This document shows positions 14,432-17,123 of a stretch of DNA of 64,000 nt, in pieces. This stretch comes from Lysinibacillus xylanilyticus (lineage in GTDB: Bacteria > Bacillota > Bacilli > Bacillales_A > Planococcaceae). The stretch's first letter is position 1. Each line of letters begins with the position of its first letter. The DNA is taken from contig NZ_MDDN01000006.1 in the NCBI RefSeq assembly GCF_001708185.1, positions 62,001 to 126,000 on the forward strand. Direction: 5' to 3'. The translations under genes and the position numbers were made by a program. The notes below the pieces were generated by a model. It was given only the letters and a program-made list of their open reading frames with translations. It made no database searches and was not told the origin of the DNA.

Positions 14432-14480
14432 TATTAACAGGTTCTGTTTTGAGGTGTAAAACAACAAATATAACAATTAG

Positions 14481-14512
14481 AGTCTGGTTTCAACACGGAA
14501 TCAGACTTTTTA
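14481..14512 (+). terminator. terminator of the small-gene cluster
   Basis: AGTCTGGTT (14481-14489) pairs with AATCAGACT (14499-14507), one G-U, followed by TTTTATTTTT. Confidence 0.85.
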
Positions 14513-14872
14513 TTTTTGTTGTAATATCAACGTTTGTGTTATATTCTCCCTCATTTTAGACGATGATTTAGACATACATTTTTTGAGGTACAGAAACTTA
14601 TGTACCATTAATATTTCCTATGATAAAACGGCTTCTTATTTGGTTGTTTTTAGGCGTTTGATTGAGATTAGTAAATTGAAACAATTAGCTAATCACACAG
14701 ATTCATAATAAAAATCATTATAAAAGGTACCCATTTTGAGTCTTTTTTCATTAAAGGAATCAATAGTTCAATAGACTCCAAAGAAAGCTAGAACAATCTT
14801 CTTAACATCTTACGGATGAGATATAATTTTAATATAAACAAAAAATACTATTGCTAAGGAGAGGTGTACATA
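14513..14872. other. 360-bp gap upstream of the GHKL gene
   Basis: No gene seen. GGTACAGAAACTTATGTACC near 14586-14605 forms a short hairpin. A TATAAT at 14822-14827 could be the -10 box of the next gene; I see no convincing -35. Confidence 0.4.
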
Positions 14873-16312
14873 ATGAAAAAGTTCGATTTGAATATCGAGA
14901 AAGTATTAGAGCACTGGACCATCCCCCACGCTTTAAGAGAAATCATTGCAAACGCATTGGATGAATCGAATTTAACAAATACCAAGGAACCACTTATTTT
15001 TAAAGATGAAGACAATAAATGGCATATCAAAGATTTTGGAAGAGGTCTTAAATATGAACATCTAACCCAAAACGAGAATATGGAAAAGACAAAGGACCCA
15101 GATAAAGTCATTGGCAAATTCGGAGTAGGTTTAAAAGATGCAATGGCGACATTCGATCGAAGAAACGTCGGAATCCTCATTCAATCAAAATATAGTGACA
15201 TTACAATAAAGAAGTTATCTAAGGGTGACTTTGATGATGTGGTAACTTTGCACGCCATTGTCAATGATCCAACTAATCCTAATATGTTAGGCACAGACTT
15301 TATGTTTACTGGTCTCAAAGATGATGATATCGAAAAAGCCAAAGATTTCTTCTTACTATATTCGGGAGAAAATGCGATTGAAAAAACGAAGTATGGGGAA
15401 CTCATTGAAAACAAAAAAAAACGTTCAAGAATTTACGTGAACGGAATTTGTGTAGCAGAGGAAGACAATTTACTCTTTTCTTATAACATCACTTCCACCA
15501 CTAAGAAACTTCGTCAATCTTTAAATCGGGAGCGGACTAATGTGGGAAGAAGTGCTTACACCGACAGGGTAAAGTCTATTCTCTTAGAATGTAACAGTCC
15601 AAAGTTTGCTGAAAAACTGGTGGATGATTTGCAAAAGATTCAAACAGGAAATTATCACGATGAATTACAATGGATCGATGTTCAGCTCCACGCTTGTAAA
15701 ATATTAAGTAGCCAGGAAAAAGTGATGTTTTTAACTGCTTATGATCTAATGGGTGGTGGTAAATACCTAAGTTACGCAAAAGAAGAAGAAATGCGTATCA
15801 TTACTGTTCCTGATTCACTAGCAAATAAACTGGAAACTAGTAAGGATCTGAATGGTAATAATTTCAGAAACTTGGAAACCTATGCGTTAGAATGGAATGA
15901 ACAATTCGAATTTGATATCGTAAACGTAAACCAATTAACAGTTAAAGAAAGAGAAATTTTCAATTACAAGGACACCATAGTAAGCTGGTTCCCAAAGAAG
16001 AGTAATCTCGTCAAGGATATTGTGATTTCAGATACAATGCGGCCAGACAATTATACGGGTTCTGATGCACTTGGATTATGGGAGCCCTCCACGAAACGAA
16101 TTATCATTAAACGTAGCCAACTTAAAAATATACAATCGTTCGCCGGTACACTTGTACACGAGTTGGTTCACGCTTATACCAATACCGATGATAACACCGT
16201 AGAATTTGAAGGAGAATTAACTGAAATGCTCGGGAAGTTGTCCACTCTTATCCTTGAAAGTTCAAATCCTGTAAAACCTAAAAGTATGCTAAAAAGATTA
16301 TTTAACAAATAG
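14873..16312 (+). CDS. GHKL ATPase fused to a C-terminal HEXXH metallopeptidase motif (479 aa)
   Basis: ATG 14873 has AAGGAGAGG upstream. The N-terminus shows all GHKL (Hsp90/MutL-type) nucleotide-binding boxes: LREIIANALDE (21-31; catalytic E23, N27), KDFGRGL (53-59) and GKFGVGLKDA (81-90). A middle region has FTGLKDDDIEKAKDFF and an arginine-rich NRERTNVGRS. The last 55 residues include TLVHELVHAY (HELVH at 429-433) and an EFEGELTEML segment with candidate third-ligand glutamates, as in gluzincins. An ATP-controlled protease or DNA/protein switch is plausible; MORC-like GHKL proteins occur in bacterial conflict systems. It stands alone between a terminator and remnants, in an accessory region. 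I know of no characterised homologue. Confidence 0.82.
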   Translation: MKKFDLNIEKVLEHWTIPHALREIIANALDESNLTNTKEPLIFKDEDNKWHIKDFGRGLKYEHLTQNENMEKTKDPDKVIGKFGVGLKDAMATFDRRNVGILIQSKYSDITIKKLSKGDFDDVVTLHAIVNDPTNPNMLGTDFMFTGLKDDDIEKAKDFFLLYSGENAIEKTKYGELIENKKKRSRIYVNGICVAEEDNLLFSYNITSTTKKLRQSLNRERTNVGRSAYTDRVKSILLECNSPKFAEKLVDDLQKIQTGNYHDELQWIDVQLHACKILSSQEKVMFLTAYDLMGGGKYLSYAKEEEMRIITVPDSLANKLETSKDLNGNNFRNLETYALEWNEQFEFDIVNVNQLTVKEREIFNYKDTIVSWFPKKSNLVKDIVISDTMRPDNYTGSDALGLWEPSTKRIIIKRSQLKNIQSFAGTLVHELVHAYTNTDDNTVEFEGELTEMLGKLSTLILESSNPVKPKSMLKRLFNK

Positions 16313-17123
16313 AATGTGTCAATTAAACTGAATTTTACCCAATTCATATAAAACAACAAGAAGTCGCTCATATTGTAGATGAGCGATTTCTCTTTTGATA
16401 TGTTTTCTTGCGAAAAAACGAATATAAAAACCTCGCATTTTAGTGTTTATTTAACTATAAAATCCCCAAGCTATTTAGGGTGTTAAAACCCTATAAAATT
16501 AAAAAGATTTTTAGGGTTGCGCATCCCAAAACAGTACCCGCTAATCTAATATAGATGCTTTTTTTATTTTACAAAGCAACTAGCATAAGTGTGGAGATGC
16601 AATTGATTGAACGAAAATTTAATCCAAAAAAGCAGACGTTTGTCGATTTTTATATTTAGTTGGGTAATGTGGCAGAGACCTATATTAAATCTGGTTACAA
16701 TAAAAAAACGGGTGCTGCATTAGCCCCGCTTCTCACTCACACATTCCTGTACACACGCTCGCCGTATTTTATTAGCCCCATTCTAGCCCCACTTAGCCCC
16801 AAAGCAAAGCTATTACATGCATTATCTTGCAATTACTGTTGATACTAGATTACCGTTAAACCGTTGATACATAAGGTTTTCTAACTGATGAATATACTAC
16901 CTTGCACCCTGAAAATAATAGAAATAGTATAGCATAATGTGGTTGGGGAATCCTGCTATAGCAATGGTCTCTGAGATTTTTTTATTAATGATTAACCCCA
17001 GTTTTATACAAGGACCGCGAGAGACATCAAGTGAAGATTATTGGCATTGAAAGAAGTTTCGAGGGCAAAGAAAAAAGCCGTAACGTTGGCAGGCGCTACA
17101 GCTTAAATCCATCCTTTATGTTA
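16313..17123. other. 811-bp remnant region
   Basis: CGCTCAT/ATGAGCG around 16363-16382 forms a hairpin behind the GHKL gene. The heptamer TAGCCCC occurs at 16721, 16773, 16784 and 16794; read on the minus strand this stretch resembles a repetitive protein tail (FGAKWG, NGANKIRRACV), possibly the end of a lost integrase, but stops interrupt it. Apart from the terminase remnant below, no gene. Confidence 0.35.
16597..16725 (+). pseudogene. second terminase small subunit remnant
   Basis: From ATG 16597 the frame reads MQLIERKFNPKKQTFVDFYI, then TAG 16657-16659, then LGNVAETYIKSGYNKKTGAA: a TerS N-terminus with an in-frame amber and no downstream half. The upstream AAGCAACTAGCATAA and the start region match those before the 7742 copy, so the two derive from related modules. 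Confidence 0.65.

Follow-up and report, generated by a model that had tools for sequence, protein, structure and literature searches.

The window analysed here, the whole 64,000-nucleotide stretch of Lysinibacillus xylanilyticus DNA, carries a gene for a 479-residue protein in which the nucleotide-binding boxes of a GHKL ATPase are followed, towards the C terminus, by the HExxH motif of a zincin-type metallopeptidase. An earlier note on this DNA had described such a protein, with three GHKL boxes and a C-terminal HELVH, and we found the gene, the boxes and the motif all to be present. The features of the locus are as follows.

14479..14509, + strand: terminator-like hairpin upstream of the gene, 13 pairs
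14856..14864, + strand: probable ribosome-binding site AAGGAGAGG, 8 nt 5' of the ATG, read directly from the sequence
14873..16312, + strand: GHKL ATPase-zincin gene, 479 aa, coordinates including the stop (ATG at 14873, stop at 16310-16312)
14873..15187, + strand: GHKL nucleotide-binding domain, residues 1-105 (Pfam HATPase_c_3; Foldseek Hsp90, GyrB)
14936..14962, + strand: N box, R22-E23...N27...D30 (E23-IIANAL-D30), from motif match and alignment
15032..15046, + strand: G1 box, D54FGRG58, from motif match and alignment
15113..15130, + strand: G2 box, G81KFGVG86, from motif match and alignment
15188..15658, + strand: transducer (S5-like) domain, residues 106-262 (GyrB and MORC2 match model residues 7-260)
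15524..15535, + strand: NRER motif, residues 218-221, whose basic residues may sense the nucleotide
15659..15919, + strand: middle alpha/beta segment of the AlphaFold model, residues 263-349; its net charge is acidic in the 18 close-clade members examined
15920..16267, + strand: predicted zincin domain, residues 350-465 (C-terminal model)
16157..16171, + strand: HELVH, residues 429-433, predicted to supply the catalytic Glu and two of the zinc ligands
16190..16192, + strand: D440, which may be the third zinc ligand or a structural Asp, invariant in an 18-row alignment
16205..16210, + strand: F445-E446, with E446 as the alternative candidate for third zinc ligand; both invariant in the same alignment
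16359..16391, + strand: terminator-like hairpin downstream of the gene, 13 pairs

An alternative in-frame GTG lies 9 bases 5' of the ATG and would give a protein of 482 aa; we prefer the ATG because of the position of the probable ribosome-binding site and because L001 and L007, two close relatives, start at the same residue. The gene stands alone between the two hairpins, as the earlier note had claimed, and terminator-like hairpins exceed expectation (5 sites observed against 1.2 expected), but the promoter region of its own that was also proposed is only partly supported: promoter-like sites occur at chance level (9 observed against 9.3 expected) and none was found on the + strand from 14400 to the ATG. 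Phage genes and an IS transposase fill the left part of the window, in keeping with the prophage and IS remnants described earlier. In a scan against PHROGs, 7 of 10 neighbouring ORFs were matched (a DnaD-like loader, an ERCC4 nuclease, an anti-repressor, a terminase small subunit, a transposase, a repressor and an esterase/lipase), and a repressor-like XRE gene lies about 2 kb upstream. The suggestion that this is a defence island was not borne out, as no neighbour in the window was recognized as a defence gene when scanned within the pooled ORF set; the window is a prophage remnant, and a defence setting comes from some of the relatives instead. Just downstream of the gene, at 16600-16842, a piece resembles by eye the start of a terminase small subunit. 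No close DNA match of the gene was found in phage records, and in an empty-site test matches to the downstream flank were scattered in 23 of 32 genomes of the genus, with no clean empty site.

Domain structure and conservation

The AlphaFold model of the full-length protein, a check proposed in the earlier note, has a pLDDT of 87.7, and in Foldseek searches its GHKL-transducer half resembles Hsp90, MORC2 and GyrB. GyrB chains match it over residues ~7-260 with an rmsd of 3.9-4.2, so that a Bergerat fold and an S5 transducer are predicted to be present. The N, G1 and G2 boxes, with the catalytic Glu and Asn, place the protein in the GHKL superfamily, and N218, R219 and R221 of the NRER motif are invariant across the 18-row alignment. 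The Pfam and NCBIfam matches to this half fall below the family cut-offs: Pfam HATPase_c_3 scores 24 bits (E 4.3e-5) against a cut-off of 25, and an NCBIfam match to a sacsin-like N-terminal domain is below its cut-off. PHROG 6077, a 366-position phage family of unknown function, matches residues 6-254 (E 1.8e-21). An ordinary gyrase or kinase fragment was considered and rejected, the best PDB sequence matches being weak and the C terminus being a separate zincin-like domain.

Since the matches of the full-length model were filled by GHKL proteins, the C-terminal domain was modelled separately (pLDDT 89.9). Its best solved-structure matches are the zincins Wss1 and Spartan, none reaching an E-value of 0.001 in Foldseek against the PDB, and the predicted fold is that of Wss1 (WLM), SprT and the minigluzincins. 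In the full-length model, helix 420-436 carries the HELVH at 429-433, which aligns to the HExxH of abylysin and Wss1. Sequence profiles again give weak matches over the C terminus: the zincin families M76, DUF6782, M91 and SprT-like in Pfam, all under curated cut-offs (SprT-like scores 12.6 bits against 25.6, and WLM is absent from the Pfam matches of the protein), Hvo_1808 in NCBIfam, also below cut-off, and PHROGs families, one of them named metallo-protease.

Of 200 000 shuffles of the protein, 2,319 (1.2%) contained an HExxH and 557 contained all three GHKL patterns, whatever their order, so that the set of motifs is improbable by chance. Conservation is the more telling evidence, and it rules out a chance HExxH. 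Across the 18-row alignment, at identities down to 20%, neither the HExxH nor D440, F445 or E446 varies; this is a chosen set whose distant rows were picked among HExxH-bearing proteins and from which L014 (HExxH lost) and L008 were left out. The earlier note had named homologues lacking the HExxH residues throughout as a finding that would count against it; this is not the case, and most close-clade relatives keep them. Nei-Gojobori dN/dS is 0.074 for the whole gene and 0.096 for the zincin against L007, and 0.066 and 0.085, respectively, against L001; against L008 it was unobtainable for most parts because synonymous sites are saturated. Both the GHKL half and the zincin half are thus under purifying selection among the nearest relatives. 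Taken together, sequence, predicted fold and deep conservation support the design of a GHKL module joined to a metalloprotease.

Distribution and architecture of the family

A family profile matched 87 distinct proteins from 162 sources, 49 of them with an HExxH. The tree of the GHKL-transducer part, built on 83 rows after three truncated copies and one second reading of one gene had been dropped, splits into a close clade of 19 rows and a distant branch of 64. The close clade spans Bacilli, Croceicoccus, Euzebya, Salinibacter, haloarchaeal plasmids and viral contigs, and near-duplicates within it (L010/L011; L143/L144/L082) mean that its 19 rows represent fewer independent cases. The pattern HExxH...D...FE is present in 18 of these 19 full-length members, which were found by whole-protein searches and exclude L086, a copy truncated before the motif; the exception, from Halorussus (L014), has a degenerated C terminus that has lost the HExxH, with the GHKL half kept. 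In the distant branch the same motif occurs in 13 rows, another HExxH form in 15 and none in 36; the branch is mostly viral, but a viral collection was its source. The presence of the fusion on both sides of the tree suggests that it is old and has been lost or replaced more than once. Among 64 viral loci, 26 have an HExxH, 35 lack it and 3 end before that point. In some relatives (L041, L062, L074 and others) the motif takes a second form, HExxHDxGxDGxxxH, in which a His stands close to the Phe-Glu position of the window protein, and L036, L044, L051, L152 and others are short phage or bacterial relatives (~360 aa) without any HExxH.

The distribution of the gene is sparse. At E-values up to 1e-12 the window gene is the sole copy among 261 genomes of its order, and strong matches occur in 7 of 398 Bacilli genomes; the other 104 of the 111 Bacilli matches are weak (E 6e-8 or worse), most of them GyrB-like as judged by length alone. 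The order of G483 has matches in 8 of 392 genomes (four full-length, two broken, and two short without the peptidase) and the class of G252 in 2 of 113. Three genomes, G638, G1290 and G1295, have broken copies. Tblastn matches occur in 29 phage records, and in one of them, a Moorella phage, the match spans 80% or more of the protein.

The arrangement of the two halves varies. On an Alkaliphilus plasmid (L124:5943-9257) a 1104-aa protein combines one zincin with a tandem of three GHKL modules, all of which have intact boxes; cas3 lies ~5 kb and cas6 ~8 kb from its gene. An Aneurinibacillus plasmid (L125:3112-9263) has the same layout, except that the reverse-transcriptase gene of a group II intron splits the first GHKL module. 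Several GHKL modules with a single zincin are as expected if the GHKL copies act on one protease. A viral contig, Mu-like by eye, encodes a TerD-GHKL-zincin fusion (L018:5404-7422; TerD E 2.7e-50), and a Citrobacter plasmid has a 115-aa zincin-like piece only.

Genomic neighbourhoods of relatives

The neighbourhood survey of homologues that the earlier note had proposed gave a divided answer: several relatives adjoin defence genes, but ORFs from control regions match defence models too. Many copies are carried by prophages or plasmids. In Salinibacter the gene sits between hsdS and hsdR. Downstream of the Natrinema copy, one gene on, is a gene for pAgo, and SIR2 is encoded 6.6 kb upstream; a SIR2-like gene lies 7.6 kb away in G671, and in G656 an M78 protease is encoded nearby and a caspase 4.5 kb away. 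L001 adjoins genes for a tyrosine integrase and an EndoU nuclease. L007 lies beyond the endolysin-holin end of a prophage and L019 also has a prophage setting, both judged by eye. No clear defence neighbour was evident by annotation in Euzebya or Croceicoccus, and the Priestia record is unannotated. A 666-aa protein without a Pfam or PADLOC match (L010:6822-8822) is encoded directly upstream of two haloarchaeal copies (L010, L011). A shared CoiA-like partner was considered, two neighbours being alike by eye, and dropped because the similarity was not significant.

Three genomes, G1314, G1190 and G483, have one site in common, as judged by their flanks. There, G1314 (L155) has a PDC-S37 gene next door, and G483 has a counterpart of it with the same Pfam domains and ~91% identical DNA. 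In G1190 (L156:3534-8422) this gene is replaced by Lamassu LmuA (E 1.7e-107) and LmuB (E 4.8e-178), beside which lies an unnamed 319-aa protein. When G1314 is compared with G1190, identity is 99.0% across the 1,954 bases of the gene region but 80-92% in the common flanks, a difference that we regard as the strongest sign of an exchangeable defence module.

In PADLOC searches, the neighbour set (122 ORFs, 13 loci) gave matches to 287 models and the control set (132 ORFs, 14 regions) to 101, totals that are counts of redundant models rather than of genes and whose matches are not traceable to loci. The ORFs were called naively, omitting those of <100 aa or >1,500 aa; the neighbour set was made up without L007, L008, L011, L018-L020, L155 and L156, and 3 of 10 of one set of control regions were left out. 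Because the control ORFs, half of whose regions are plasmid, also match defence models (Cas3, Hma, GajB and HEC-05 among the matches listed), we do not claim that the neighbours are enriched in defence genes.

Known systems and proposed role

The window protein itself matches none of 5027 PADLOC models at E-values up to 1. The closest working precedent, by analogy, is VcSduA (Shedu type I-D, paraMORC3), a GHKL protein with a DUF4263 nuclease in which, according to the available parts of the sources, E27A and K557A each abolish defence, both active sites thus being needed (PMC12137116; PMC2292703). Like the window gene, it is a single stand-alone gene, and its N-terminal GHKL domain is thought to control the C-terminal effector (PMC12137116, in part); the effector of the window protein is, however, a predicted zincin and not a PD-(D/E)xK nuclease, and with no DUF4263 match in Pfam or PADLOC we do not assign it to Shedu. 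MORC and paraMORC proteins of restriction systems offer a similar likeness in their GHKL and S5 domains, patchy spread and, beside some copies, restriction genes (PMC2292703, in part). Membership of MORC was rejected, since the S5 motif GhXhhpXXRhl, as given in the portion of that paper available, occurs in 0 of 19 close-clade proteins; the paper's main text contains no words beginning protease, zincin or metallo.

From Hsp90 and TRAP1 the protein differs in its zincin-like C-terminal part, and of the five Pfam families matched at E up to 1 none is Hsp90. From Wss1, Spartan and the minigluzincins (abylysin, selecase) it differs in lying under curated Pfam cut-offs, in being fused to a GHKL module and in having only D440 or E446 as candidate third zinc ligand. 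CapP of CapH-CapP, an M78 protease, is likewise linked to defence operons (PMC13373217, in part), but the window protein has no M78 match in Pfam and no paired repressor was seen by eye. Phage rIIA is a phage GHKL protein with a variable C terminus (PMC7824862, in part) to which structural matches begin at E 3.9e-9; sequence matches to rIIA-annotated records, however, cover residues 20-99 only among the matches listed, and the part of PMC7824862 available mentions no zincin for rIIA. The match to PHROG 6077 also differs, ending before the zincin. The sources describe, in the parts available, GHKL modules that drive nucleases, kinases or chaperones, including members of conflict systems (PMC2292703; PMC12137116; PMC13373217). 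No GHKL-driven protease was found in the literature searched, among the matches listed. The parts are known, and no union of them was found there, in literature without preprints and most subscription journals; the earlier note likewise knew of no characterized protein of this design.

GHKL proteins form dimers that close on ATP binding. Our current working hypothesis, to which we give an even chance, is that the window protein is a conflict protein encoded by a single mobile gene and directed most likely against phages or plasmids, acting as an ATP-controlled zinc protease that cuts a clamped substrate. ATP binding by the Hsp90/GyrB-type GHKL-transducer half would close the dimer on a substrate, and closure would position or switch on the C-terminal protease of Wss1/Spartan/minigluzincin type, which would then cut what is gripped: a protein of the invader, perhaps DNA-associated, or alternatively a host protein whose loss would stop the infected cell. 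The gene, its intact boxes, the predicted folds, the purifying selection on both halves and the location on mobile DNA, with defence genes adjoining several loci, are what the analysis shows; dimerization, ATP hydrolysis, zinc binding, proteolysis, the coupling of the halves, the target and the defence outcome are all features that we infer. Across 18 members, net charges range from -13 to +2 for the GHKL domain, -17 to +3 for S5, -13 to -5 for the middle segment and -18 to -1 for the zincin, so that outside a short, mostly basic tail the domains are near neutral to acidic and a DNA clamp is not favoured. Together with the fit to Hsp90, this leads us to lean towards a protein substrate, an argument tempered by the fact that proteins of halophiles are acidic anyway; the likeness to Wss1 and Spartan would still allow the substrate to be DNA-bound.

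That likeness is also the starting point of an unlikely alternative, namely that the GHKL dimer closes round DNA, as in MORC2 and MutL, and the zincin degrades proteins stuck or bound there, aiding phage or plasmid replication or clearing host proteins. Among solved structures the zincin is matched best by Wss1 and Spartan, which are DNA-activated crosslink proteases, as reported in the parts of the sources available (PMC4559962, PMC5127644), and the matches of the GHKL half include MORC2 with DNA. In the Moorella phage, a helicase and SSB are encoded within ~4 kb of the gene, one plasmid copy lies near SbcCD genes, and the distant-branch rows, drawn from the viral collection searched, are mostly from viral contigs. 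Against this, the folds of Wss1 and the minigluzincins are close, so the match does not single out work on DNA, the MORC-specific S5 motif is missing in all 19 proteins, and the charges just described argue the other way, though a local basic patch could exist.

Quite unlikely, in our view, is a regulatory protease of the mobile element that on a stress signal cleaves a repressor or regulator, as CapP does CapH, and so switches the prophage or neighbouring defence genes. CapP and the GHKL kinase CapK are described in the available part of PMC13373217 as DNA-damage-activated controllers of defence operons, the L018 and L019 copies come after phage regulatory genes by eye, and the XRE gene upstream in the window would suit such a role. 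However, no repressor gene is kept adjacent across the annotated loci or ORF lists, as judged by eye, and the window gene is set off by its hairpins. We consider it very unlikely that the protein is instead a phage counter-defence protein, kept on prophages and destroying host defence proteins: rIIA is discussed in that role (PMC7824862, in part) and the distant branch of viral origin would be in keeping with it, but close-clade copies are also found on plasmids and chromosomes, some adjoining defence genes, and the neighbours differ at the one common site. The least probable alternative, a zincin half that is structural or degenerate and without catalysis, could draw on the Halorussus protein and the 36 distant rows without HExxH, which indicate that GHKL can act without the protease and count against our preferred reading as well, but it is opposed by the motif kept in 18 of 19 close-clade members, the invariant D440 and E446 of the 18-row alignment and a zincin dN/dS of ~0.09.

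Returning to the ATP-controlled protease, we put forward more tentatively, as a possibility we would sooner bet against than on, that these proteins form a new class of ATP-gated protease in which the ATPase is a clamp of Hsp90/GyrB type and not an AAA+ unfoldase, clamp closure activating a built-in minigluzincin-like protease, and which would serve as an immune effector encoded by a single gene, borne by bacterial and archaeal prophages, plasmids and islands and existing also in tandem-clamp and TerD-fused versions. If active, the window protein would add a protease effector to GHKL-based immunity and provide a compact model of how ATP can control a zinc protease, and it would identify a conserved mobile family that PADLOC and Pfam, as searched here, do not recognize as a unit.
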